Source of the DNA: Paraburkholderia sp. IMGN_8
Lineage (GTDB): Bacteria; Pseudomonadota; Gammaproteobacteria; Burkholderiales; Burkholderiaceae
Assembly (NCBI RefSeq): GCF_038050405.1
Contig: NZ_CP150901.1
Span: forward strand, 3,968,001-4,032,000
Reading direction: 5' to 3'
Length of the DNA: 64,000 nt
Shown here: piece after piece, positions 8,276-48,820 of the stretch
How the letters are laid out: each line of letters begins with the position of its first letter
Numbering within the stretch: the stretch's first letter is position 1
Made by a program: the position numbers and the translations under genes
Notes under the pieces: model-generated
The model's database searches: none
The model's input: the letters and a program-made list of their open reading frames with translations, nothing else
What the model was told of the DNA's origin: nothing

Positions 8276-9034
8276 ATGCCCCCCTCTTCTCCGATCCGCG
8301 CGATCGTCACCGGCCATACTCGCGGCCTCGGCGCTGCGCTCGCAGAACAACTGCTCGCGCGCAACGTCGCGGTGCTGGGCCTGTCCCGCTCGCGTCACGC
8401 CACGCTTGCACAGCGCTTCCCGGCTTTGCTCGAAGAGATCGAACTGGAACTGGCCGACCCCGCGCGCGTCGCGCAATGGCTGGCAGGCGACGCACTGCGC
8501 GGCTTTGTCAGCGGCGCGCAAAGCGTGCTGCTCATCAACAACGCGGGCATGGTGCAGCCGATCGGTCCGATCGAGGGGCAGGACGCCGCGGCCATCGCGA
8601 GCACGGTAAGCCTGAATGTCGCGACGCCGCTGATGCTGGCGAGCGCCGTCGCAGCGGTCAGCGTCGACGCTAACGATCGGCGCATCGTGCATATTTCGAG
8701 CGGCGCGGCGCGCAATGCGTACCCTGGCTGGAGCATCTACTGCTCGACCAAAGCCGCGCTCGACCATCACGCGCGCGCCGTCGCGCTCGATGCGAATCGC
8801 GCGCTGCGTATTTGCAGCCTCGCACCAGGCGTCATCGATACGAATATGCAGGCACAGATTCGCGACAGCGGCTCCGAGCAATTTCCGATGCGCGAAAAAT
8901 TCGAAGACCTCAAGCGCAACGGCCAGCTTTCGACGCCTGAACACTGCGCGACCCAGTTGCTCGACTACGCCTTCAGCGATGTGTTCGGGCAAACACCCGT
9001 GGCCGACATTCGCGAGATAGCGAAGCAAGCCTGA
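8276..9034 (+). CDS. Short-chain dehydrogenase/reductase family oxidoreductase
   Basis: 252 aa, a classical SDR. It has the nucleotide-binding TGHTRGLG near the N-terminus, NNAGM in the middle, and the catalytic Ser plus YCSTK (Tyr-x-x-x-Lys). It uses NAD(P)H to reduce or oxidise an unknown carbonyl or alcohol. ATG 8276 gives a start just before the Rossmann fold; no strong ribosome site is visible, so the start is only fairly sure. Downstream is the first group of satellite iterons. Confidence 0.88.
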   Translation: MPPSSPIRAIVTGHTRGLGAALAEQLLARNVAVLGLSRSRHATLAQRFPALLEEIELELADPARVAQWLAGDALRGFVSGAQSVLLINNAGMVQPIGPIEGQDAAAIASTVSLNVATPLMLASAVAAVSVDANDRRIVHISSGAARNAYPGWSIYCSTKAALDHHARAVALDANRALRICSLAPGVIDTNMQAQIRDSGSEQFPMREKFEDLKRNGQLSTPEHCATQLLDYAFSDVFGQTPVADIREIAKQA

Positions 9035-9547
9035 GGCGCGGTTTCTCTGCTCCCGAAAAATCTCACCTTTGGCACGAAGCGGCCGGGGAAAGGCACGAGA
9101 TGCGCATCGGCCAGCCCCCGAAAAAGCTCACCTCAGGCGCTTGCGTACGGCCTGCAAAGGCATGCTGGGCGGGGCACCAGTGGTTCCGGACCGGCCACTC
9201 CCGCAAACCCTCACCTTTGAGTGTGTTTCAGGTAATTTGCATACCCAGGTAAGAAGCGGTGCGCCGGGCAGACTTTCATCAGCCGGGTGAACGCGGATCG
9301 ATCTTGCCGCTCACCGAATTCGGTCCAAAACCCGCTACGGCTCGTGACCATGTGCGCGGCTCCCGAATATTCTCACCTTTGCTCCGGTGATCGCATCTGG
9401 GAGCCGCCTGCAGCCACCCGCGGCCTCCACAATCACAACGTGTGAAGGATGCCCACGATCACCATTGCCTGACTTTTTGCGCGCGGCTCCCGAAAGTTCT
9501 CACCTTTGACCGGAACCGCGGCGCTCGTGCTGCCGCGCGCGTACTGC
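9035..9547 (-). repeat. Satellite iteron group A (five copies) in a convergent intergenic region
   Basis: The 513 bases between two convergent genes hold no supportable gene. They carry five copies of the origin iteron, reading GGTGAG-N6-CGGGA on the minus strand, at 9051-9072, 9115-9137 (last base changed), 9199-9220, 9361-9381 and 9488-9510. Spacing is irregular (about 64, 84, 162 and 127 bases). They are opposite in orientation to the main array 20 kb away. Confidence 0.85.
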
Positions 9548-9913
9548 TCAGCTCGCCAGCTTGCGGAACGTTTCCAGCACCGCGTCGCCCTTGAACGGCT
9601 TGACGATCCAGCCTTTCACGCCGGCCGCCTTGCCGCGCTCCTTCATCGCCGGGCTGCTTTCGGTGGTCAGCATGATGACGTTGACCGTCGTGTTCGCGAG
9701 TTCGCCGCGAATCTTTTCGACCATCGTCAGACCGTCCATGTTCGGCATGTTGACGTCGCTGATCACCAGTTTGATGCCGGGGCTGGCCTTCAGCTTGGCG
9801 AGACCGTCTTTACCGTCCACGGCGGTGTCGACATCCAGACCGTTCTTCTTCAGAAAGCCGGCCACTTCATCGCGCACCGTGCTCGAGTCGTCCACCACGA
9901 GAATCTTCGACAT
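9548..9913 (-). CDS. CheY-like single-domain response regulator
   Basis: 121 aa, a lone receiver domain. Acidic residues at 8-9 (VVDDS), the phosphoacceptor Asp53 (VISDVNMPNMDG), Thr in MLTTESS and Lys in WIVKPFKGD are all present. It is the last gene of the operon running from 14632 to 9548, 21 bases after the receiver-CheX gene, and is the likely phosphorylation target of the CheA-like kinase. There is no output domain, so it must act by protein contact. Confidence 0.93.
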   Translation of the reverse strand: MSKILVVDDSSTVRDEVAGFLKKNGLDVDTAVDGKDGLAKLKASPGIKLVISDVNMPNMDGLTMVEKIRGELANTTVNVIMLTTESSPAMKERGKAAGVKGWIVKPFKGDAVLETFRKLAS

Positions 9914-14958: not shown

Positions 14959-15860
14959 TTGCCTGCGCGGCGCTTTTTGGCTGTGTGCCTATGGCGTTGG
15001 CCTTTCCTTGATTTGTTAGTGGTTTATTAGCTTCGCCCCTGTGCGGGGCAGGCACTTACTTTCTTTGCCGCCGCAAAGAAAGTAAGCAAAGAAAGCGGCT
15101 TCACACCGCTAATTCTTAAGCGGGTCCCCTGGCTTGGAGGAGGGAGTGGAGCATCTGGAATCAGTGTTCTCGCGCACTCCGCGCTGGTGACAAGGCAGTC
15201 ATACTTCCGGCGGCGCTGCGCGCGCCGTGGCGGTACTTCATAAAAGCGTCGGGCGCTTTTCGCGCCTGCGGTTGCTCAGGTGTTACGGCTGGTGTTTGCT
15301 GCGCCAGCGTAACTCGCGGGTGCGTTTCGTTCGGCACTTTTTCGGTGCCTGCGGTGGCTCGCCCTCATGTCTTCAATGCCTCGCCGAGGTACTAGCGTGT
15401 CAGCCGGAGTGGTGGCTCACATCCGCACACTTGGGCGCCTCGCCGAGGCGAAGCCGATGGCACCCAGCAAATCAAAACGAAGCCCCCGGTTTCCCTTGCA
15501 GACCGTTCCGGCGAGCACGCAGTGCGAGGCGGGAGGGATGATGCCGGAAGCGCATACGCCCCATCGGTGTTGGGAAGTACCGCTGCGGCGCGCGTAGCGC
15601 CGCCGGAAGGATGACTGCCTTGTCACTCACGCCGAATGTGCGAGAACACAGATTCCAGATGCTCCACTACCTCCTCCAAGCCAGGGGACCCGCTTAGGAG
15701 TTAGCGGTGTGAAGCCGCTTTCTTTGCTTACTTTCTTTGCGGCGGCAAAGAAAGTAAGTGCCTGCCCCGCACAGGGGCGACGCTAATAGACCACTAAGAA
15801 ATCAAGGAAAGGCCAACACCGTAGGCACACAGGCATAACACGCCACGCGAGACAACCAAC
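14959..15860. repeat. Long intergenic inverted-repeat element, copy 1 (about 0.9 kb)
   Basis: No supportable gene lies in this stretch. Its two ends are imperfect inverted copies: the left arm (GGCCTTTCCTTGATTTGTTAG at about 15000, GCCCCTGTGCGGGGCAGGCAC at about 15035) returns in reverse complement near 15750-15830. Each arm contains nested palindromes, notably CTTACTTTCTTTG-N-CAAAGAAAGTAAG. The inner part also folds back (GTGACAAGGCAGTCAT at about 15188 versus ATGACTGCCTTGTCAC at about 15610). A second copy lies at 57484-59617, and fragments at 1-32 and 52845-52920. An AT-rich patch (14750-14900) lies just outside. Confidence 0.8.
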
Positions 15861-15863
15861 CCG

Positions 15864-16559
15864 TCAGCGAATCGACGGAAGATGCTTCGCGGCCTCACGC
15901 AATGTGAGCGGCGAGATAACGTCTCGCGCGGCAGACAGAAAGTCGCTCACTGCATCAGGCGCATGCCACGCGTAGTCACGCAAGGCCCAACCGATCGCCT
16001 TGCGAATGAAGAAGTCAGTTTCCGCCGCCAGCGAGCGGGCATAGCCAAATAGCCGCTCTTCATCGGTATGCTCGCGCCAGCCGAGTTGATGAATCATCGC
16101 GATCCGCCGAACCCACAGCGACTCATGTTCGAGCGCCGCATCCATGCAGGCCTGCGCGTGCGGCGCCTGCTCGCGCGCCGCTTTCAGAACGTCGCCAACC
16201 ACACCAGCCAGCGGATCGACCGAATCCCACCATGCACTGCGTTGAGCTATCGACAGCAAATGCTCGATGTCCGCGAGGCCGAGGGTCTTCCACTTGCGCG
16301 CCAGCAGGTCGATGGCAGCGTATTGGTACTCGCGTTGCGGCATGGACCATAAGACGTGCGCGCACGCCAAGAGGTGCTCCGCGCTCTCGACCGGCAGCCG
16401 CTTGAAAACCGGCAATATCGCTTGCCGCCGCAGCGGCGTCGGCACGCCGATGAACTCGAAGTGGTTCCGCATGTAAGCGCGCATCGCGAGCGCGCGCTGG
16501 GCATCGGCATGCGGGGCGAGTGCCGCCTTGATCTCGTCGCCGAAAGCGTTGGGCGTCAT
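15864..16559 (-). CDS. DNA alkylation repair protein (AlkD-like HEAT-repeat family)
   Basis: About 231 aa, helical, with the AlkD-family features: an early VPTPLRRQAILPVFKRL, the central WWDSVDPLA segment with the Trp/Asp used for excision in AlkD, and FIRKAIGWALRDYAW near the C-terminus. AlkD-type glycosylases remove bulky or cationic alkyl-purines. The chosen ATG at 16559 sits just after a satellite iteron whose AGGTGAGG half lies 9 bases upstream and would serve as ribosome site. A GTG at 16574 inside the iteron is the alternative. Confidence 0.85.
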   Translation of the reverse strand: MTPNAFGDEIKAALAPHADAQRALAMRAYMRNHFEFIGVPTPLRRQAILPVFKRLPVESAEHLLACAHVLWSMPQREYQYAAIDLLARKWKTLGLADIEHLLSIAQRSAWWDSVDPLAGVVGDVLKAAREQAPHAQACMDAALEHESLWVRRIAMIHQLGWREHTDEERLFGYARSLAAETDFFIRKAIGWALRDYAWHAPDAVSDFLSAARDVISPLTLREAAKHLPSIR

Positions 16560-16642
16560 CCCGAATATCCTCACCTTTGAGTTTGAAGTGCGTCGACAGG
16601 TAGTATTATTCTCACCACGCGCTCCCGAATATTCTCACCTCT
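16559..16642 (-). repeat. Satellite iteron group B (two copies)
   Basis: Two minus-strand iterons at 16559-16580 (GGTGAG-GATATT-CGGGA) and 16623-16642 (GGTGAG-AATATT-CGGGA), 64 bases apart. The first overlaps the leader of the alkD-like gene; the second abuts the efflux-gene remnant. Confidence 0.85.
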
Positions 16643-19224: not shown

Positions 19225-19952
19225 GCCTTCTCCTTCGATGGATCAATGGTCACCTCGCGTCGCCGCTCGGGTGGCGACGCCATGTGTCATCCGCAACTTA
19301 TCAATCAGCGAAGGATCATGTTTTACGAAGCCGTTACAACCACCGCAAAGTCGGCTCGCTCGTGCGATGCCGGCCTGCCGTCCGTATGCCCGCGGCATGC
19401 ACTCCACGCGGGCTTCGCGGCGTCACGTGGCGCAAGGTGACGCGTTCACGCTTTGTTTATATATGGAAGAGGAAGTAAGGAGATCGACGGTTTCGCCCCT
19501 GAATTGCGTTGCTTCGTTTCAGGGTGAGGTTTCGAACGCTCGATGCATCACCGTCGGCGGATATGGGGTGGACTTCCTGGAAATCCTCACCTTATTGCCT
19601 CGTCGCGCTTGCGGTGGATCTTCCTCACCTCCTGGAATGGCTCACCTTTGCGGGTCATCTCCTGGAACTCCTCACCTTGACGTGTCTTTCTGCACTTCAA
19701 GGGTGCCGTTTAGCTCCTGGAACGGCTCACCTCTCGCCGATTCGGCTCTATCTCCTGGAATTCCTCACCTTCCCCCTTGCGCTAACGTCTTATCCACCGC
19801 CAGAAAATTTATTGCCCGCCCCCTGTAAGAATCGCGCCTATGCTCCGACTAAGTCCAATGCCCTGTCTTATGGCGATAGCTCGTTCGTTTCCAGGCTATC
19901 AATACAAAAGCGGGCGCAATTGGATGGCCCAAAGGGCAGAGGAGCTTGACGA
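19225..19952. other. Intergenic region of about 730 bases holding variant iterons
   Basis: Open frames here look like chance products of a GC-rich region: no ribosome site, no recognisable domain. The supportable contents are five variant iterons (19575-19772) and one DnaA-box-like TTATCCACC at 19792-19800, upstream of the cysteine-cluster gene. Confidence 0.6.
19575..19772 (-). repeat. Satellite iteron group C, variant type (five copies)
   Basis: Five minus-strand copies read GGTGAG-N6-CAGGA rather than CGGGA, at 19575-19594, 19630-19650, 19660-19680, 19713-19734 and 19751-19772. A half site (CTTCCTCACCT) lies at about 19618. All five share the G-to-A change, so they form a distinct class. 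A DnaA-box-like TTATCCACC follows 20 bases later. Confidence 0.82.
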
Positions 19953-27045: not shown

Positions 27046-28128
27046 ATGTCACCTCCCCATCTGTCTGACCCGATCGAACGCCCAGCGCCGTCTACTGATC
27101 TCTTCGATCAGGAACGCGAGGATTGGCGCCGCGACCCGCAAATCGCCTTCGACGCGTGGCTCGCCAAACAGCATTTCAGGCGTTCCTCCGCCGAGGTCTA
27201 TCAAGCGCAATGGGGATCGTTCCTCGATTGGCTTGCGTTTCGCCAGAAGAGTCTCATTACAGTCGACGCGCAGACGATTGCCGAATTCGTCGCCGGCCTG
27301 GCGATTAAAAAGACGCAGCGTGTCCGATATCTGCGCCTGATTGAACGAGTGCTGGATCATGTTCGCGAGATCGAATCGGCTTCCACCAATCCAGCACGCT
27401 TCATTGCTCAAGACGGTGAAGCCGCGTGGCGAAACGCGCGCGATAACGAGCCAACCGGTTTTCTCAGCCATCCTGAACGCGCCGCGCTGATCGCACACCT
27501 GTTTTCGCCTTTGACGGCTTTGTCCGCCGCGCAGCGCTGGAGAGAGCGGCGCGATCGCGCGTTGATTGCGGTATTTCTCGGCGGCGGACTGAAAACGGGC
27601 GAAGCGGCGGCGCTAACGGTTAGTTGCGTGAACGTGGGCTCCCCGTGGGTGACGATCGAGTCGGCTAATCCGATGCTGACACGCCGTACCCGGCTTGCGC
27701 CGTTCGCGGTGGCGATTCTCGATGCATGGCTGGCCGAGCGGCGGCTTTCCGAACTGGCCGGCAACCTTGTCTTTCCCGCTTCGCCTTCGGGACGGCCGAT
27801 GCATAAGGCGACCATGTTACGAGCAGTCGACGCGCTAATCGACACTGCCGGAATTGCCGCGTCCAGGGCATCACGCGCAAGTCCGCAAACATTGCGCAAT
27901 ACTTTCGCCGCGGATCTGTTCGAAAGCGGGGTTGAGGCTGAACTGGTCGGACAATGGCTGGGATTTGTCCAGGCGGTATCCGTGAATCGTTTGTATCGAG
28001 CGTGGCAGACATGGGCGGAACAGCAGGATTCGCCGGCAGTCGACGAACCGGATCCTGCCGCCCCGCCATTGCCAGTGCCTAGGCGTGACGGGCGTTTGAC
28101 GAGGAAAGCGGGGCCGGGCGAGTCCTGA
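27046..28128 (+). CDS. Tyrosine recombinase-like protein with altered catalytic residues
   Basis: 360 aa. An N-terminal SAM-like core-binding domain (about 30-110: FDAWLAKQHFRRSSAEVYQAQWGSFLDWL) precedes a tyrosine-recombinase catalytic fold. Aligning by eye: the first Arg is Lys (FLGGGLKTGEAAAL), box II is SPQTLRNTFA (His replaced by Gln, Arg kept), the next His/Trp position is Phe (WLGF), and the Tyr is present (NRLYRAW). It may be an inactive or DNA-architectural XerD relative. It lies beside the origin, and two satellite iterons follow its stop. Confidence 0.8.
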   Translation: MSPPHLSDPIERPAPSTDLFDQEREDWRRDPQIAFDAWLAKQHFRRSSAEVYQAQWGSFLDWLAFRQKSLITVDAQTIAEFVAGLAIKKTQRVRYLRLIERVLDHVREIESASTNPARFIAQDGEAAWRNARDNEPTGFLSHPERAALIAHLFSPLTALSAAQRWRERRDRALIAVFLGGGLKTGEAAALTVSCVNVGSPWVTIESANPMLTRRTRLAPFAVAILDAWLAERRLSELAGNLVFPASPSGRPMHKATMLRAVDALIDTAGIAASRASRASPQTLRNTFAADLFESGVEAELVGQWLGFVQAVSVNRLYRAWQTWAEQQDSPAVDEPDPAAPPLPVPRRDGRLTRKAGPGES

Positions 28129-28168
28129 AAATCCTCACTTTCGAGGTCCCGAATTTCCTCACCTTTGG
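28122..28168 (-). repeat. Satellite iteron group D (two copies)
   Basis: Minus-strand iterons at 28122-28143 (AGTGAG-GATTTT-CAGGA) and 28147-28168 (GGTGAG-GAAATT-CGGGA), between the convergent recombinase and KfrA-like genes. The first has the A variant and one mismatch, intermediate between the origin and group C types. Confidence 0.8.
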
Positions 28169-28201: not shown

Positions 28202-29407
28202 TCACGCCGATGCGGAAATCGATCCCTTCGACAAAAACCGGCTGACCGCCTCCAGGCGCGACTCGCCGGGTCCCGACGAGTGATCGCATTCCGGACACTG
28301 CAATTCAAAGCGGTGATCCACCTGCGATAGCTCGGGCTCACCTTCTTCGCATTTCGGACATCGCTGCGGCAGCGTGACATGGCCGTCGGCCGCGGTACCG
28401 ATCACCGTCAGTTCGTCGTTCGTCAGCCGGCCGGCTTCGACCAGCGTGCACAGCAGCCTTGCAACCGCCGGATCGATACCTTGCTGGCCGCGCAACTCGG
28501 CGACTTCCTTCGTCAAAACATCCAGTTCGTCGGACTGCTCGCGCAATTGCGCGTCCAGCCGATCGCCGCGCGCCTTGGCCGAGGCAATTTGCTGAATGAA
28601 ATCGAACTCCTTGCGACTCGCGTCGCGTACCCCTGACTGATAGGTGGTGGCCATGCTGCGCAAGGAATCCAGTTCGACCAACATCGGCTTGACGCGCCGC
28701 TCAGCCTCAGCGACCGCGTCTTTGATCTGTTGCGCATAGTGTTCCGTGCCCTGGCGCAATTCGACATGCAACGCGTCGATCCGGTCGCGAAGCGTGGCAT
28801 TGGTCGACTGCTCAGTGTCCAGGCGCTGGCGAAGTGCTTCGTTTTCACGGTCGAGTCGCTGCACCGTTGCCTGTAAGCCTTCCTGATGGGCAGTGCCATG
28901 TGTGGTGACACTGGATAACTCGGCTTCGAGCGCGCGAACCCGCTCCCACGCGACTTCCGCTCGCAGTTCGCTGCGTTTGACGGCTTCTTCCGACGCGTCC
29001 CGGCGGATTTCCGCTTCTCGTGTGCGCTGGTCGGCGGCGGCAATCTGCGCGCGAATTTCCTCGCGCTCCCCGTCGAGCGTTGAACGGGCATGCACGACGG
29101 CTTCTTCGAAGAGTGCTCCCAATAGTTCACCGGCCCGGTCTTCCAGCGCTTTTGGAATAGCACCGGCGCCGACTTTTACTCGCGACACATTTCTGATGCG
29201 TTCCCAGAAGTTGTCAATGTCCTTTGGAATGTCGCTCGCGCTGCCTGTTTGGGTCAGGTCGCGAACGGCGGCCATCGACGGACGGATTCCAAGATCAAAA
29301 AAAAGCCGCTTGCAGGCGTGGAGCGACAGTTCCTGGCGTCGCGCGCCGTTCGCTCGCATCGATTCAAGCTCGTCACGTATGGCTTGACGTTCTTTGTCCA
29401 GATTCAT
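28202..29407 (-). CDS. KfrA-like DNA-binding coiled-coil protein with C-terminal zinc ribbon
   Basis: 401 aa. The N-terminal about 110 residues fit the KfrA DNA-binding domain (DLGIRPSMAAVRDLTQTGSASDI). A long Glu/Arg/Gln-rich coiled coil runs from about 120 to 330. It ends in a Cys4 zinc-ribbon-like module (CPKCEEGEPEL...LQCPECDHS). Plasmid KfrA proteins autorepress and are linked to partitioning; the zinc module is not part of the classic KfrA. It is transcribed away from the iteron array, with TACGTATT repeats upstream. Confidence 0.82.
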   Translation of the reverse strand: MNLDKERQAIRDELESMRANGARRQELSLHACKRLFFDLGIRPSMAAVRDLTQTGSASDIPKDIDNFWERIRNVSRVKVGAGAIPKALEDRAGELLGALFEEAVVHARSTLDGEREEIRAQIAAADQRTREAEIRRDASEEAVKRSELRAEVAWERVRALEAELSSVTTHGTAHQEGLQATVQRLDRENEALRQRLDTEQSTNATLRDRIDALHVELRQGTEHYAQQIKDAVAEAERRVKPMLVELDSLRSMATTYQSGVRDASRKEFDFIQQIASAKARGDRLDAQLREQSDELDVLTKEVAELRGQQGIDPAVARLLCTLVEAGRLTNDELTVIGTAADGHVTLPQRCPKCEEGEPELSQVDHRFELQCPECDHSSGPGESRLEAVSRFLSKGSISASA

Positions 29408-29792: not shown

Positions 29793-31430
29793 AGGTGAAG
29801 CTTTACGGGAGAGGTGGTGAGGTCCTGCGGGAGTATTGAGTGATGGGGTTCGGGGACGTCGGTGAGTGGGTCCGGGACAGAACGTGAGCGGGTTCAGGAG
29901 CCGCTGCAAAAGTGAGGCTTAGCCAAAGGTGAGGTTTTGCGGGACCTGACGGGCGCAGATCGCCCGGCAGCGCTCGAAAGTGCGTTTAGAGCACGGCCCT
30001 GCTGGAGGTGAGCGCTTTCAGGACCGCTCTGGACCCTATTTTTTGGCCTTATTTTGGGCTCCCAAACCCCATTGGTGAGTCAAGACGGGACTGAACGCGA
30101 ACCGCAGGTGAGATTTTACGGGAACAAGGTGCCATTTTTGCCTTAAATCTAGGCACTCAGGCCGCTAAGGTGAGTGTTTGCGGGAGGCGTGCTGCGTTTT
30201 GGGCGAAATTCGGCTGATACCGGTATCGGAATTGACGGTGACCTTTTGACAAAGGTGAGCAAATTCGGGAGATAAGGGGCGGGTCGATCCGCGCGTCAAT
30301 AATTGGCCTATTTTTGGCCAAAGGTGAGGCTTTTCGGGATGACTTTTAGGTGCTGCCGATCGTTGAGGTGAGGAAATACGGGACCAAAGTCGTCATCGCC
30401 CGCCGGAAATGCCCTGCAGGCGCTGTCGGACGCAGTCTGGTTCAGCTGCTGCGGAATTCGAATGGTGAGGTTTTTCGGGACCTTTGGGGGCGCGCTCAGG
30501 AATCGCTGGATTCACGGAAAAACTGCGGAAGGTGAGGAAATTCGGGAGTGGATGACTGCGTTATCGACCAAAGTGATTTGGTAAGTGCATGAATATATGG
30601 AGAAATTTGTCCTCTCTCGGCAAGGGTGAGGTTTTTCGGGAGGTGCTTGCCATGCTATGCGCAAGCACGAGTCGCACTCAATGGTGAGGCTTTTCGGGAG
30701 TATTTATCGGTGGTTTTTTGGACTACCAGGCCCGAAGGCCGCGTCAATTCAAGCGCTGAATAGGCTGAAAGGTGAGCTTTTTCGGGTGAGTTTGTCGTGC
30801 GTTGACTCGCAAGCATCGGTAAGTTGAGATGCTTGCTTGGCATTTAGTCGCCCTTCACTCGATGTAGGCATGCCACGGTATGTGCCGCCGGGGTCCTCTG
30901 CGCCACCGTCGGTCTATGCGGCGCGAGGGCATGTAGCCGTACGCTGCGTGTCTCCATTCGGAGCAGCATGGGTGCGCCGGCTGATTGGGTGGATGCCGGA
31001 TTGGGAGGCCGCTCCGACGGCGCCGATGCGGCGTGGGACCTCAGGAGGGGGTTTGCGGGCGTGGGGCGCATGCCGTTCAGCCCGCTTCGGGCGGTACGAG
31101 ACAACGGGCCCCGCCCACTGGCGCCGCTCGTGACGAAGCCGGCGCTCCGCCGACTCCGGGGCCGACATTGGACGGGTGCCCAGTTCTCCCCTGCCCTTCC
31201 GCTCGAGAACGAAGCATAAAAATTTTCGCTGCGTTGACCCCACGCGAGTTGACCCCACGCGCAACGTGGGTGCGGCCAAAATTCACGAGATTTTTTTAAG
31301 GTGAGGAGATTCGGGATCGAACGCGTCCCGTTCGAGGCAGGTCCGAAATTGGTCCGGATTTCCGGACGCCGCGACCTGCAAGGATGCCCCGAACCTGGCG
31401 CGAAATGCTTGAGGTGAGGGTTTTCGGGAG
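29793..31430 (+). repeat. Origin iteron array, about 19 copies of GGTGAG-N6-CGGGA
   Basis: Plus-strand copies start near 29793, 29815, 29861, 29883, 29925, 30006, 30073, 30105, 30167, 30252, 30320, 30366, 30462, 30529, 30623, 30681, 30769, 31298 and 31411. Best consensus: A(A/T)GGTGAGG(T/C)TTTTCGGGAG. Copies at 29883 and 30006 carry CAGGA. Spacing is irregular (20 to 140 bases), unlike a CRISPR or tandem iterons. All share one orientation, toward rep. A half copy without the CGGGA part lies at 31437. Confidence 0.88.
31233..31262. repeat. 15-base tandem repeat near rep
   Basis: GTTGACCCCACGCGA followed directly by GTTGACCCCACGCGC. GCGCAACGTGGG right after partly inverts it. It lies in the iteron-free part of the origin, about 250 bases before rep. 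Confidence 0.6.
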
Positions 31431-31515: not shown

Positions 31516-32898
31516 ATGCTCTCGCCAAATCCCTCCTCGACCCGACGCATGGCCACGAAGCGCGCGAAGAAGACCGATGTTGTGAGCCCGAGTTCGGCCG
31601 AATTGCGAAAAGCCGTCGAGGCGATCGCCATCCAGCCCAAGAGCGGCAAAATCACACTCCTCACCCGTAAGCTGTTCAACGTGCTCCTCGCCGTCGCTCA
31701 GCAAGCGGACGAGTCCGGCGACACCTATCGGGCATTGCTGTCGGACATCGTCGCCAATTCTGCGTTCGATTCGAATGACACCGCGCTAGTGAAGGAACAC
31801 TTGCGGCGCATGGTGTCGGTGCAGGTCGAGTGGAGTACCGGTACGTCGAGTCAGAAGCCGGGCCGCAAATGGGGTATCTCCACGCTGATCGCTGACGCTG
31901 AAATTCTCGAAGACCCCACCACTCGCCGCGTGTGGGTCGAGTTCTCGTTTGCGCCGAAGATCAAGAAGAAGCTGCTCGATCCAGTTCAGTACGCACGCTT
32001 GAGTCTGCAGTTCCAGAGCCAGCTGCGCAGTAGCGCGGGCCTTGCGCTCTACGAAATCTGCGTGCGCTACCTGACGAACCCGAGTCATCTGACGATGCGC
32101 GAAACGTGGGAGTGGTGGCGCCCTATCCTCTCGGGCACGCCTGACACGGAAGCCGGCGACGAAGCGAAACGCGAGTACAAGTATTTCAAGCGCGATTACC
32201 TGCGTCCGGCGATCGCCGAAGTGAACGCCGTCACCAACATCTTTGTCGAGTTGATCGAGCATCGGGAAGGACGGCGGGTCGCCGAGATCCAGTTCCGCGT
32301 GACGGAGCGCAAGCAGCCGATGCTCGCACTCGACGAACATCCAAACGTGTTCGACAGCACGCTGGTCGACCGCATGGTGAAGATCGGCATTCCGCTGAAG
32401 GAAGCGCAAACGCTGTACGCCGATAGCGAAGAAAATCGTATTCGTGCAGCTTTGCAAATGACTGAGCAACGCATGCGCAGCACGTCCTTGCCGCCTGTGC
32501 GCAGCGCGCCTGCGCTGTTCAAGGATGCGTTGAAGAAAGGCTATGCGCCGCCGGTCGAAGCGGTGCCGTCCATCGGCGGTGGCAAGGCGGCGGTCGCTGC
32601 GCCGGCAGACGATCTGAAAGCCCGTCTGCTTGGCGAGTACTCGGCGTATCGCCGCAAGGAAGCGCGCGAGCTTTACGACGAACAAGGTGAGTCCGAGCGG
32701 GAGATCGCTCGGCAGTCGTTTGAAGAAGATGAATTGCCGGGGCTCGGCACGCACATGCGGGACGACTGGCGTCGGCGCGGACTGGATTCGAAGATTGTCG
32801 AAACGGCGTTCTTCGATTGGCTGGCTCGCAAGACGTGGGGTGAGCCCACCGATGGCGATCTGCTCGCTTTCACGCTGAGCCAATCTCGCGCGGCGTAA
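31516..32898 (+). CDS. Replication initiator protein of the secondary chromosome (Rep_3-like)
   Basis: 460 aa. The central region has the paired winged-helix layout of iteron-binding plasmid initiators (LTRKLFNVLLAVAQQ; LSLQFQSQLRSSAGLALYEI; KREYKYFKRDYLRPAIAEVNAV). It would bind the GGTGAG-N6-CGGGA iterons and open the origin. The C-terminal about 150 residues are acidic and less conserved. Start is 31516 or ATG 31549 (MATKRAKKTD); neither has a good ribosome site. It is convergent with parB. An iteron match lies inside its 3' coding part. Confidence 0.88.
   Translation: MLSPNPSSTRRMATKRAKKTDVVSPSSAELRKAVEAIAIQPKSGKITLLTRKLFNVLLAVAQQADESGDTYRALLSDIVANSAFDSNDTALVKEHLRRMVSVQVEWSTGTSSQKPGRKWGISTLIADAEILEDPTTRRVWVEFSFAPKIKKKLLDPVQYARLSLQFQSQLRSSAGLALYEICVRYLTNPSHLTMRETWEWWRPILSGTPDTEAGDEAKREYKYFKRDYLRPAIAEVNAVTNIFVELIEHREGRRVAEIQFRVTERKQPMLALDEHPNVFDSTLVDRMVKIGIPLKEAQTLYADSEENRIRAALQMTEQRMRSTSLPPVRSAPALFKDALKKGYAPPVEAVPSIGGGKAAVAAPADDLKARLLGEYSAYRRKEARELYDEQGESEREIARQSFEEDELPGLGTHMRDDWRRRGLDSKIVETAFFDWLARKTWGEPTDGDLLAFTLSQSRAA
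32685..32704 (+). repeat. Iteron match inside the rep coding region
   Basis: AAGGTGAG-TCCGAG-CGGGAG, an exact match to all fixed iteron positions and flanks, but with a GC-rich spacer unlike the AT-rich spacers of the array. It encodes QGESERE of Rep. Confidence 0.45.
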
Positions 32899-34015: not shown

Positions 34016-35231
34016 CTTTATGCGCATAAATTCACGGAAGCAGGGCGGCGATTTCGTTGGCGCACGCCCGGATTTCGATGCCGGCGAGCTTGGCGCCGCG
34101 ATCGTTCATCTGAAGCACTGTTTGCCCTAAAGCCATCGCCTGCTTGTACGCTTCGCGAGTTGGGATTTGGGTTTTGAGTAGCGGGAATCCGAGTTCTTCT
34201 AACGCGCGCTTCAGTTCACGCGTCAGCATCCGCTTCTCTTCGGTCTTGTTGAGCAGAAAGACTGCGCGCAGGTCTTCGTTCATGACCTGGGCTTGCTGGA
34301 CAAGTTTGACCAGACCGACGCTTGACCAATAGTCAGCGGGCGACGATGAGGTCGGGATAACGGCGACGCTCGCTGCGAGCAACACAACGCCGGACACTTT
34401 CTCGGTGATGGAGGGCGGGCAGTCGACGACGATGATGTCGTAATCAGCGACGAACTTCTTGATCTCGCGATGGATCTGGCTGCCGGCTTCAGAGAGGTTG
34501 ACGACTGGAAACGGGATGCCGGATTCGCCATCGGATGAGGCACTGGCCCAATGGATCAGTGTGTTTTGACCATCTGCGTCCACAACGAGGACGCGTTTGC
34601 CTTTCTCATGGAACGCAGCGCCGAGGTGCATCGCGATAGTGCTCTTCCCGACCCCGCCCTTCTGCTGAGTTACCGCGATGATTTCTGCTGCCAATCTTCA
34701 CCTCCTCTTTTTAGACGCAGATGGATTTTACCTGGATGAATTCGTATTTCAATCGATTTTGTGTAAACACGCGAAGAAATAGCCATTCGGGATAGGTTTA
34801 TGCGCATAAACGTTGGAAGGCGCTGCATAGAGACTGGGAGGTGGCGTGGGACAAGATGAGCGGCGCGCCGTTTTCTAAATATTCCGGACGTGTTCGTTCT
34901 CAAGTCGGCTTGACTCAGTCCGGGACTCGGATGCTCGTGCTGTTTTGCATTGGCGCTTTGATCGGATAACGGGCCGATCTTTATGCGCATAAACGTGCTT
35001 TCCGAAACCGCTTACGGGTGAGGCCGTGCAACGGTGTCTTGACGCGCCGGATCGATACATCGTCTCGGCGGCAACCGCATTCGACGATTTGGTGATTGCC
35101 GCAACGAGGCCGCTCCACTCGTGCGTACCGAGCAGGCCCGTTTCAACGGCCTGAGAAATGCCGACATGTACGACCGGCTGCGCGCCAATCGAGAGGCTTA
35201 CGCGACAGGTCCGCGCTTTATGCGCATAAAG
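34016..35231. other. Four parS centromere sites (core TTTATGCGCATAAA)
   Basis: 16-mers at 34016-34031 (between parA and parB), 34796-34811 (exact GTTTATGCGCATAAAC), 34979-34994 and 35216-35231. All four keep the 14-base palindromic core; the outer pair varies. From memory this core is the one used by chromosome 2 of Burkholderia cenocepacia. They bracket parA. Confidence 0.9.
34032..34694 (-). CDS. parA: ParA family partition ATPase (small, type Ib)
   Basis: 220 aa. Deviant Walker A at the N-terminus (QQKGGVGKSTIAMHLGAAF), Walker A' and B regions (VVDADGQNTLIHWA; IIVVDCPPS). It lacks the N-terminal HTH of large plasmid ParAs. It positions ParB-parS complexes on the nucleoid. The start codon is TTG at 34694, supported by a strong GAGGAGG site six bases before it and by the Walker motif starting just ten residues in. 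Probable parAB operon. Confidence 0.94.
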   Translation of the reverse strand: MAAEIIAVTQQKGGVGKSTIAMHLGAAFHEKGKRVLVVDADGQNTLIHWASASSDGESGIPFPVVNLSEAGSQIHREIKKFVADYDIIVVDCPPSITEKVSGVVLLAASVAVIPTSSSPADYWSSVGLVKLVQQAQVMNEDLRAVFLLNKTEEKRMLTRELKRALEELGFPLLKTQIPTREAYKQAMALGQTVLQMNDRGAKLAGIEIRACANEIAALLP

Positions 35232-39985: not shown

Positions 39986-40270
39986 ATGAGCAACACGATC
40001 AGAAGTTACCGGGGCCTTGAGATCTATCCGCTGGTTTATCCACATCAACCGCGCAGCCTCGACGGCGCCCGTCACTACGATGCGGGCTTTGACGCAGCCG
40101 TGCGAATCTGCCGACGCGGCACAGACGATACATTGACCAGCAGCCGTGTGTTTCGCGTGCCGAGCCGTTCGCCATTTGGTGCGGCCGGCGACGCCCGCAT
40201 CGCGTCAGCCAGTTATGCGGAGCGCGTGATCGACGGCATGGTGACAGGCCAGTCGATTGCCGGACTCTGA
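39986..40270 (+). CDS. Small conserved hypothetical protein
   Basis: 94 aa, basic, without signal peptide or membrane span (MSNTIRSYRGLEIYPLVYPH; YDAGFDAAVRICRRG). ATG 39986 follows GGAG. Its TGA shares a base with the ATG of the next gene (TGATG), a translationally coupled pair. I do not recognise a characterised family. Confidence 0.65.
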   Translation: MSNTIRSYRGLEIYPLVYPHQPRSLDGARHYDAGFDAAVRICRRGTDDTLTSSRVFRVPSRSPFGAAGDARIASASYAERVIDGMVTGQSIAGL

Positions 40271-40551
40271 TGGGCGCATCAATGGCAACTCCCGTTTCCA
40301 GGCGCTCGCAGCGCGCAGACCCCCCAGCCCTCACGGACCGCGCGAACTATCAGGTCGCGGTCTCGTCGCGCCGTACGTCGAGCGGCACCGTGCCGACGCT
40401 GAAGGTCATCCGTTTGAGCGACGAGCGGGTGATTTACCCATTCCAGGGCCACGCGGACATGCCGTTTTTCGACAGCGCCGACGCCGCCCAGGTGTTCGCC
40501 GAGACCTACGGCTGGCAGCTTGTGGATGGCGACATCGCCGTGCCGGAATGA
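40270..40551 (+). CDS. Small conserved hypothetical protein, coupled to the preceding gene
   Basis: 93 aa. A mixed alpha/beta chain (NYQVAVSSRRTSSGTVPTLK; DSADAAQVFAETYGWQL) with no known motif. It starts at 40270 in TGATG. The two products share the general shape of a short domain with xYxVxVxxR strands and a C-terminal helix, so they may be distant paralogues or partners. Confidence 0.62.
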   Translation: MGASMATPVSRRSQRADPPALTDRANYQVAVSSRRTSSGTVPTLKVIRLSDERVIYPFQGHADMPFFDSADAAQVFAETYGWQLVDGDIAVPE

Positions 40552-40977
40552 CCGCCCGTGCCGGTTGAGCGCGGACGGTTTCCAGACGCCAGACCATCGG
40601 CCTTGGCGTCTCGCCCGGCTCGCCGTCGTTGTATGCAGCGCACCGCCGGCCGCCATCAGTCGTCTATGCCAGACGTGTCGATTTGCATCCGGGCAGACAA
40701 AGCAGAACGTCCATTTGCCTCAAATCGTCATACACCGGAAGCAGGCTTGATTGACAAGGCAAAAGTACTACTTATCCACAAGGTTATTCAGTGAAACTGT
40801 GGATAACTTTGGGTGCTACCGGGTTATCCACTAGCTGCAACGGCCATCGTTTGCTCCCCGTTTTCCCGATCGTCGGCGTTTTTGTTGCCGCGGCCGTCAT
40901 CTCGTCCGGCTTTTGCCTATGATTGTCAGTTCTGACCCTTTTCGCGCGTCAAGCGCTTCACACCGAAGGAGCGAGAC
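40552..40977. other. Intergenic region of about 425 bases with DnaA-box cluster
   Basis: No gene is supported. The distal part contains three DnaA-box-like sites (listed separately) and the promoter region for the FMN reductase gene. Confidence 0.5.
40772..40832. promoter_or_regulatory. Cluster of three DnaA-box-like sites
   Basis: TTATCCACA at 40772-40780 (perfect, plus), TGTGGATAA at 40798-40806 (perfect, minus) and TTATCCACT at 40824-40832 (one mismatch, plus), 17-18 bases apart. A weaker GTTATTCAG lies between the first two. Confidence 0.75.
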
Positions 40978-41532
40978 ATGGCCCATCACATTGCAGTCGT
41001 TGTCGGCAGCTTGCGTCGTGAATCTTTCAACCGCCAGTTGGCCCACGCCGTGATTTCGCTCGCGCCGGCCGATTTCACCTTCGAATTTATCGACATCGGT
41101 TCATTGCCGCTCTACAGCCAGGAATACGACGCCGACTATCCCGAAGTCGCGAAACAGTTGAAGCAGCGCGTCGAAGCTGCCGATGGCCTGCTGTTCGTCA
41201 CCCCCGAATACAACCGCTCCATGCCTGGTGTGCTGAAGAACGCAATCGATTGGGGCTCGCGTCCGTGGGGCACCAATTCGTGGGCCAACAAGCCCGGCGC
41301 GGTGATCGGCACGTCCCCCGGCGCGACCGGCACGGCGCTGGCGCAACAGCATCTGCGTAATGTGCTGGCGTATCTCGATGTCGCCACGCTCGGCCAGCCC
41401 GAAGTGTTCATCAAGCACGACGCGGCGGTCATCAACGAGAAAGGCGAGATCCTGAACGACGGCACGCGCAAGTTCCTGCAGACATTCGTCGAGCGCTACG
41501 TCGCGTGGGTCAAGTTGCATACCGCCGCCTGA
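40978..41532 (+). CDS. NADPH-dependent FMN reductase family protein
   Basis: 184 aa, flavodoxin-like. VVVGSLRRESFNRQLAHAV binds the FMN phosphate, and TPEYNRSMPGVLKNAIDWGSR is the family signature (ChrR/YieF-like). It reduces quinones, chromate or azo compounds with NAD(P)H. A GGAG site precedes the ATG. It lies alone, and a DnaA-box cluster sits 150 bases upstream. Confidence 0.93.
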   Translation: MAHHIAVVVGSLRRESFNRQLAHAVISLAPADFTFEFIDIGSLPLYSQEYDADYPEVAKQLKQRVEAADGLLFVTPEYNRSMPGVLKNAIDWGSRPWGTNSWANKPGAVIGTSPGATGTALAQQHLRNVLAYLDVATLGQPEVFIKHDAAVINEKGEILNDGTRKFLQTFVERYVAWVKLHTAA

Positions 41533-47971: not shown

Positions 47972-48820
47972 TTGGCTGTTTCCAATCTTGTCGTGGACGA
48001 TACAGAAATCGACGCCGCTGCCGCCACGTCCGGCAGCTCGTTCTATCTCGCGATGCGCATCCTGCCAGCCGCGCAGCGCGACGCGATGTATCGGGTCTAC
48101 GCCTTCTGCCGCGCTGTCGACGATATCGCCGACAGCGACATGCCGCGCGCCGAACGCGCCGCCGCGCTCGAGCGCTGGCGGGCCGACATCGACGCGTGCT
48201 ACGCCGGTGCGCCGCGCGCTTCATTGCGCGCGTTGACACGGCACATTCATACGTTCCACCTGCAGCGCGAAGATTTTCACGCGATGATCGACGGCATGGC
48301 GATGGACGCCGCCGCCGACATCTGCGCGCCCGATGAAGCCACACTCGATCTGTACTGCGACCGCGTCGCGAGCGCGGCGGGCCGTCTATCGGTGAGGATA
48401 TTCGGGATGCAGGACGAGCCCGGCCGCCTGCTGTCGCACCACTTGGGCCGCGCGCTGCAACTGACCAACATCCTGCGCGATATCGACGAAGACGCCGGTA
48501 TCAACCGCTGCTACCTGCCGCGCGAATTGCTGGCGCGCGAAGGCATCGCCGTGACGAGTCCGGCGCAGATCGCCGACGATCCGTCGCTGCCGCGCGTGTG
48601 CGCGACGCTCGCCGAGCGCGCCAAGAAGCATTTCGCCGCCTCCGACGCAATCATGGACCGCGAGCCGCGCAATAACGTCCGCGCGCCGCGCATCATGTCG
48701 GGCGTCTATCGCGTGCTGCTCGAACGCACGCTCGATCGCGGCTTCGACATTCCACGTACGAAGGTCAGCAAGCCGCGCATGCACCTGCTGTGGATCGTCG
48801 CGCGTTACGCGCTCTTCTGA
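47972..48820 (+). CDS. hpnD: Presqualene diphosphate synthase HpnD
   Basis: 282 aa from a TTG start at 47972 (GGAG six bases before). Squalene/phytoene synthase fold with the two Asp-rich motifs FCRAVDDIADS and LTNILRDIDEDA. It condenses two FPP to presqualene diphosphate. The gene opens the hopanoid operon hpnD-hpnE-shc-hpnG. A perfect iteron sequence is embedded at codons for SVRIFG. Confidence 0.93.
   Translation: MAVSNLVVDDTEIDAAAATSGSSFYLAMRILPAAQRDAMYRVYAFCRAVDDIADSDMPRAERAAALERWRADIDACYAGAPRASLRALTRHIHTFHLQREDFHAMIDGMAMDAAADICAPDEATLDLYCDRVASAAGRLSVRIFGMQDEPGRLLSHHLGRALQLTNILRDIDEDAGINRCYLPRELLAREGIAVTSPAQIADDPSLPRVCATLAERAKKHFAASDAIMDREPRNNVRAPRIMSGVYRVLLERTLDRGFDIPRTKVSKPRMHLLWIVARYALF
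48390..48409 (+). repeat. Iteron match inside hpnD
   Basis: CGGTGAG-GATATT-CGGGATG matches all fixed positions and is identical over 19 bases to the satellite copy at 16559. It is read as Ser-Val-Arg-Ile-Phe-Gly-Met using AGG and ATA, codons that are otherwise scarce in this GC-rich gene. Confidence 0.5.

Follow-up and report, generated by a model that had tools for sequence, protein, structure and literature searches.

The window (the whole 64,000-nucleotide stretch of DNA analysed here) covers positions 3968001–4032000 of contig 2 of the Paraburkholderia genome G000, a 9.11-Mb assembly of two contigs (4.66 and 4.45 Mb). In group A (window positions 9051–9504) the origin iteron GGTGAG-N6-CGGGA occurs five times, once with a mismatch and otherwise exactly. 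The group is flanked by convergent genes, one encoding an SDR protein (plus strand, ending at 9034) and the other a response regulator of the CheY type (minus strand, 9548–9913). All five copies lie on the minus strand, opposite to the plus-strand origin array, whose closest copy is 20.3 kb off, and successive copies are spaced 65, 83, 162, and 127 bp apart. Coordinates and strands thus agree with the original prediction, which had placed five iterons in a convergent gap, opposite to the origin array and ∼20 kb from it. Of the conserved non-iteron element E1 the window holds one exact copy and one further copy at three mismatches; all features are listed in Table 1.

TABLE 1. Iterons and associated features in the window (window coordinates).
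Feature	Position	Strand	Remarks
Group A iteron 1	9051..9067	-	exact; member of fixed-spacing triple
Group A iteron 2	9116..9132	-	one mismatch, CGGGG; member of triple
E1, conserved non-iteron element between iterons 2 and 3	9154..9171	+	18 bp
Group A iteron 3	9199..9215	-	exact; member of triple
E2, second conserved element adjoining iteron 3	9232..9253	+	single copy in window
Group A iteron 4	9361..9377	-	exact; distance to triple differs among relatives
Group A iteron 5	9488..9504	-	exact; copy adjoining cheY end
Satellite pair 16559, 16623	16559..16639	-	spacing 64; first overlaps AlkD-type ORF start
Class B, five variant repeats GGTGAG-N5-CCAGGA	19575..19769	-	relation to Rep uncertain
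Satellites 28147 (exact) and 28123 (two mismatches)	28123..28163	-	between integrase-like and kfrA-like gene ends
Iteron array at origin	29794..31429	+	18 copies with ≤1 mismatch, all plus strand
rep gene, Rep3-type initiator	31549..32898	+	Pfam PF01051 + PF21205
Right-arm satellite	48391..48407	+	within squalene/phytoene synthase gene; in 12/12 mapped genomes

The start of rep was set at M12 of the longest open reading frame, as chosen by the gene caller, and the contigs of several relatives also begin there. Its product matched Rep3_N and Rep3_C in Pfam, its sole solved relative from sequence searching was the pi initiator (2nra, E 0.004), and an ortholog was found in all 58 genus genomes searched. 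The origin region also encodes ParB-type and KfrA-type proteins, the latter a KfrA_N protein (28202–29407) adjoining the array, with an integrase-like gene beside the origin. At ≤2 mismatches to the chromosome 2 parS motif, parS-like matches in the window are confined to 34016–35231, with none near group A or the other satellites. Five DnaA-box matches (three exact) cluster at 40036–41095, ∼7–8 kb to the right of the rep gene, and at 15020–15800 a long inverted similar stretch, seen by eye, lies between the Hpt/kinase gene and the AlkD-type gene.

The window holds 33 iteron matches at ≤1 mismatch, compared with an average of 1.47 in shuffled versions (n = 100). From that mean ∼0.011 matches are expected in 460 bp, giving a Poisson P of ∼1e-12 for five or more. 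Across the whole genome there were 237 matches at ≤1 mismatch (37 of them exact) vs. 109 for a reversed control motif, so lone, distant one-mismatch copies are largely background. Scans of group A and its surroundings returned no match to a sigma-70 promoter or an intrinsic terminator within 8900–9700 and no Rfam match over the family cut-off in 8800–9700 (best E 0.99).

The chromosome 2 (c2) iteron of Burkholderia cenocepacia was given as ctCCCGAAAAacCTCACCTtt (Du et al., 2016; PMC4948915). This is the reverse complement of the motif in group A and at the origin, and the group A motif agrees both with the published c2 consensus and with the origin array. In a family survey of 120 genomes with the stricter pattern GGTGAG-N4-T-N-CGGGA, the motif occurred 11–36 times in 46 and 1–4 times in four of the 50 genomes with a Rep ortholog (78–100% identity), and 0–2 times in the 70 genomes with a distant Rep (≤41%) or none, 35 of which (out of 55 genomes without a match) were placed there by elimination, assuming that both scans drew the same 120 genomes. 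A separate search of relatives recovered 22–44 copies in each of 24 genus genomes, our own included, vs. 0–2 of the reversed control, and 0–2 copies in 16 genomes from other families. The motif is thus that of the origin iteron and tracks the Rep ortholog, in line with the prediction that group A consists of extra, putative initiator-type sites of the kind present at the origin. Four genomes of 1.1–1.2 Mb (G080, G100, G130, and G139) have a Rep ortholog of 78–82% identity and only 1–4 motif copies, and look as though copy control had relaxed.

The conservation search was anchored on the CheX-type gene beside group A and returned 39 named loci, of which the nearest is from Paraburkholderia lacunae and the closest 21 (L081–L101, CheX at least 82% identical) are titled Paraburkholderia in 20 cases and Burkholderia sp. 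OK233 in one. All 150 exact iterons in these 21 loci share one orientation, and an iteron lies ≤60 bp from the end of the cheY match in every locus except L086. The triple, spaced 83 and then 65 (or 64) bp, is kept in 19; it is absent in L096 and L100, where the flank covered may end too early. In some species (L082, L083, and L089) the triple and the cheY-side copy are 8–9 kb apart. Among the outer 18 loci exact iterons occur in only two, Paraburkholderia rhizosphaerae (L105), where the chemotaxis cluster is on the contig of the array, ∼160 kb from it, and P. humisilvae (L106). In L102 and L108 the cluster is off the origin-array contig, since the anchor contig is shorter than the array-contig coordinates, and no exact iteron was found within 10 kb of the cluster. 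Overall, 16 of the 39 anchor loci had no exact iteron in the flank covered, some of them belonging to the same family and some represented by short stretches; they include Caballeronia, Trinickia, four titled Paraburkholderia or Burkholderia, and seven outside these genera. Fetched stretches of G043 and G047 carry satellites at the SDR side and lack the CheX cluster, the SDR-side block of G047 being 230–270 kb from rep. On the question of whether syntenic relatives keep the cluster, place, orientation, and inner spacing are therefore retained in many relatives, not in all.

We aligned 22 triples, namely those of the 19 closest loci, the window, G053, and G022 (loci and G genomes may share assemblies); in the remaining nine of the 12 genomes mapped below, the stretches retrieved contain no triple. 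Iteron core columns were invariant at 32 of 33 positions, a figure partly built in because triples were selected by the motif (≤1 mismatch). E1, which was not selected, was invariant at 15 of 18 columns, compared with 12 of 18 for the inner N6 columns and 10 of 96 for the remaining spacer. At ≤2 substitutions, E1 was found in all 22 triple sequences plus the triple-free G001, with no copy in any outer locus (n = 18), and E2 was found in 18 sequences.

We mapped exact satellites in 12 genomes oriented on rep (our own and 11 relatives), covering 60–91 kb of the left arm and 20–72 kb of the right. Left-arm satellites occur in all 12, spread over the left flank of the origin, and the proposal that group A forms part of a distributed system accordingly stands. 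Counting exact GGTGAG-N4-T-N-CGGGA matches outside the interval from −2500 to +1400 around rep gave 134 satellites: 122 on the left arm, 110 on the minus strand and 12 in the other orientation, and 12 on the right arm, one per genome. Left-arm numbers vary, with five exact satellites in G042, six in G065, and three within 60 kb in G047. Only 13 of the 134 lie within genes, compared with 108 expected, and 12 of these are the right-arm site; convergent gaps hold 46 (4.4 expected), tandem gaps 56 (12.4 expected), and divergent gaps 19 (8.9 expected from all DNA). Our home-made gene caller overlooked one or more genes, the integrase-like gene among them, and hence overstates the intergenic fraction, so that the gene-avoidance test errs on the conservative side; P values are only descriptive, because sites common by descent are not independent. 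Satellites are somewhat nearer the consensus than origin iterons, with an AAA flank in a fraction of 0.43 (n = 134) vs. 0.22 (n = 130; Fisher P 4e-4) and TT preceding CGGGA in 0.71 vs. 0.52 of the same sets. The AlkD-side pair, spaced 64 bp in the window, is spaced 66 bp in 19 of the 21 closest loci.

Because the 12-genome map covers the arms only partly, one-sidedness rests on exact-match listings of six genomes (our own, four relatives, and P. xenovorans LB400, in which group A is located at ∼23.8–25.2 kb of chromosome 2). In each, the right arm has a single site up to 75 kb from the origin, the in-gene one, a tally that omits the exact N6 match inside rep at window position 32686. Distant single matches occur on both arms (e.g., G000 C2:937303 and G053 C2:4425640). 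Farther out, an inverted iteron pair 239–251 bp apart was found in syntenic DNA of G000, G022, G053, and LB400, in every case on the left arm, at 79.5–88.7% of the distance between the origin and the point opposite it; G047 and G043 showed no exact pair of this kind. A scan for E. coli-type dif letters gave no match and the terminus was not located, so the far sites are placed by origin distance only.

Several other arrangements of the repeats were observed. Homologous DNA of G011, G002, and G009 (L131, L132, and L133) carries a far iteron pair 107–108 bp apart, and a left-arm far pair 34 bp apart is common to G000 and G053 (L123 3501–3551 and L124 3283–3333). Contig 3 of G053 (804,682 bp, L125–L128), a third replicon, carries four iterons, two of which fall in a 2.9-kb segment that occurs in two copies with 94% identity. 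On contig 1 of G040 (6.68 Mb of a 6.7-Mb genome, L170–L174) satellites occur together with the origin of chromosome 2 and an open rep reading frame; either the chromosomes have fused naturally or the assembly is in error. Class B repeats, which may be weaker Rep sites or the sites of another factor, number 41 copies in eight of the 12 mapped genomes (1–17 per genome), and in G047 they form 221-bp tandem units. A compact distal array of 11–12 iterons, mostly in 23-bp steps, was present in three genomes from a different genus of the family (probably Burkholderia). Its distance to the array at the origin is ∼136, 149, and 159 kb, the third value being measured across the contig start with the contig taken as circular.

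A homologue of the squalene/phytoene synthase gene starts shortly upstream of the right-arm site in the other mapped genomes. We considered whether this site might be a coding coincidence; the invariance of third codon positions spoke against it, with 4 of 4 such positions invariant at motif letters vs. 4 of 41 elsewhere. For that comparison rows were picked by motif match, yet all 12 genomes had one, and the forced Met position was omitted. On contig 1 there is a single well-formed iteron (L002 1501–1517; G000 C1:2332809). As a candidate crtS analogue it was rejected, because its surrounding DNA was matched in only two of 58 genus genomes, G000 and G019 (with several matches in G019). No crtS-like conserved iteron was found on the main chromosome; a crtS-type site without the iteron motif may still exist there.

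The closest tested parallel is Vibrio cholerae, in which satellite iterons bind RctB and lower the copy number of ori2 plasmids (PMC3937223; reviewed in PMC6090056). Like these, the satellites described here are additional initiator-type sites that share a replicon with the origin and lie outside it, within tens of kilobases, a similar distance at which they would be duplicated early. The motif differs (RctB iterons hold TGATCA), a V. cholerae-type iteron pattern gave no match, and in contrast to V. cholerae the Paraburkholderia clusters often have fixed inner spacing, near-uniform orientation, and E1, and near the origin are almost one-armed. The c2 iterons of B. cenocepacia share the consensus and likewise have copies elsewhere in the genome. 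A supplementary table legend places a second cluster of them at a distance of 140 kb from the origin (Du et al., 2016; PMC4948915), which the compact distal arrays described above fit; the Paraburkholderia satellites differ in being dispersed modules, most of them no more than ∼75 kb from ori2, with far pairs in addition. In E. coli, datA is a cluster near the origin that binds the initiator and restrains re-initiation (PMC3937223), as proposed for the satellites here. The initiator bound by datA is DnaA, and datA promotes DnaA-ATP hydrolysis. Group A lies 20 kb from its array on a chromosome-sized replicon, with the wide and uneven spacings given above, unlike incA of plasmid P1, a negative element made of tandem extra iterons outside the minimal origin, beside the rep gene of a small plasmid. 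The original prediction had invoked both P1 incA and Vibrio chromosome 2; the Vibrio half of that comparison emerged stronger, and the P1 half weaker, since satellites in the genus are dispersed over tens of kilobases. We know of no nucleotide switch for the chromosome 2 Rep.

Judging from motif, position, and conservation, we think it probable that group A is a satellite cluster of chromosome 2 Rep sites and one module of a distributed negative control. Rep would bind group A and the other satellite copies, and the left fork would double these soon after initiation; at the fork speed of ∼33 kb per minute reported for B. cenocepacia (PMC4948915), group A would be copied <1 minute after initiation. 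Once doubled, these sites would take up Rep by titration, become paired with origin iterons carrying Rep (handcuffing), or both, and the origin would be blocked from re-firing until more Rep had been made. Titration by itself leaves the fixed spacing, the orientation, and the one-sidedness unexplained, and the fixed 83 + 65 bp spacing with the inner E1 suggests a defined nucleoprotein complex over loose sponge sites. ChIP-seq in V. cholerae placed RctB at eight chromosome 1 regions and six chromosome 2 regions (PMC11711613), and a bound site need not therefore be a brake. A more elaborate version, which we regard as doubtful, would make Paraburkholderia chromosome 2 a one-armed, polar network of Rep sites, with modules of fixed geometry near ori2 that would bind Rep along with a second protein at E1, and with a far pair, in which passage of the left fork first shuts off and later resets initiation; it takes the far inverted pair to lie ∼80–89% down the left arm, with the circle midpoint taken as the end. 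If true, this would be a replication-progress timer for a secondary chromosome, one that makes no use of a conserved trigger of this motif on chromosome 1.

As an alternative to negative control, Rep, or Rep together with an E1-bound protein, might bridge the satellites to one another and to the origin and thereby fold the left flank of ori2 into a domain for segregation or origin positioning, any effect on initiation being secondary. The near-origin one-sidedness, the near-uniform orientation, the fixed 83 + 65 bp spacing, and the extra conserved element all speak for such an architectural role. Against it, parS sites are the elements that usually serve segregation, and the parS-like matches are found in a different place (34016–35231); we also know of no architectural role of a Rep3 initiator that could be cited. 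Hi-C in B. cepacia, which shows the origin of chromosome 2 in contact with much of chromosome 1 (PMC13342612), is a further point in its favour; on balance we hold this possibility to be unlikely, if the most serious of the competing explanations. Local transcription control, with satellite-bound Rep regulating the adjoining genes, is suggested by the copy at 16559 overlapping the start of the AlkD-type ORF, by the excess of satellites in divergent gaps over the expectation from all DNA (19 vs. 8.9), and by the differing expression of VC1803, though not of VC1042, upon deletion of rctB in V. cholerae with fused chromosomes (PMC11711613). Group A, however, lies between convergent genes and has no promoter match, and when gaps alone are considered divergent ones fall below their share (19/121 vs. 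35%) and convergent ones exceed it (46/121 vs. 17%). Across relatives, moreover, satellites remain beside differing neighbour genes, and the chemotaxis clusters found off the array contig (L102 and L108) have no exact iteron within 10 kb, leaving transcription control a very unlikely main role.

Binding mainly by another origin-linked protein, such as the KfrA-like protein encoded beside the array, would be in keeping with the adjacency of the KfrA_N gene (28202–29407) to the iterons at 28123–28163 and with the presence of a kfrA-like gene in all 12 mapped genomes. We nevertheless consider it highly improbable: this protein is less conserved than Rep (66–90% vs. 91–98% in the 11 mapped relatives), and Rep initiators usually target direct, asymmetric repeats located upstream of their gene. 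The same consensus was, moreover, read as iterons in B. cenocepacia by Du et al. (PMC4948915). The satellites might, finally, be functionless remnants of former origin or plasmid duplications, as the integrase-like gene adjoining the origin and the compact iteron arrays ∼136–159 kb from the origin in the three probable Burkholderia genomes could suggest. The triple-to-origin comparison argues otherwise, the best 12 matches being only 17–27 bp long, i.e., iteron-sized, and so do the near-invariance of the cores (selected by motif) and of E1 amid otherwise diverged spacer and the retention of motif letters at third codon positions of the in-gene right-arm site in 12 of 12 genomes. Of the explanations weighed here, we give this one the least credence.

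Extra c2 iterons outside the origin are already in print, as one legend sentence that goes unanalysed (Du et al., 2016; PMC4948915), and in the open-licence PubMed Central literature we found no study of satellite conservation, geometry, or function in Burkholderiaceae. We regard the retention of orientation and spacing as the part most deserving attention, and the fixed module and E1 narrow the question down to exact base pairs. A 2026 survey infers lineage-specific timers and states that their discovery in further systems would add to the knowledge gained from crtS in V. cholerae and from methylation control in Agrobacterium (PMC13342612). The satellites may bear on how a Burkholderia-type second chromosome is held to one round of replication per cell cycle. 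If they do restrain Rep, a second two-chromosome lineage would make a plasmid-type origin act in a chromosome-like manner by the same principle.
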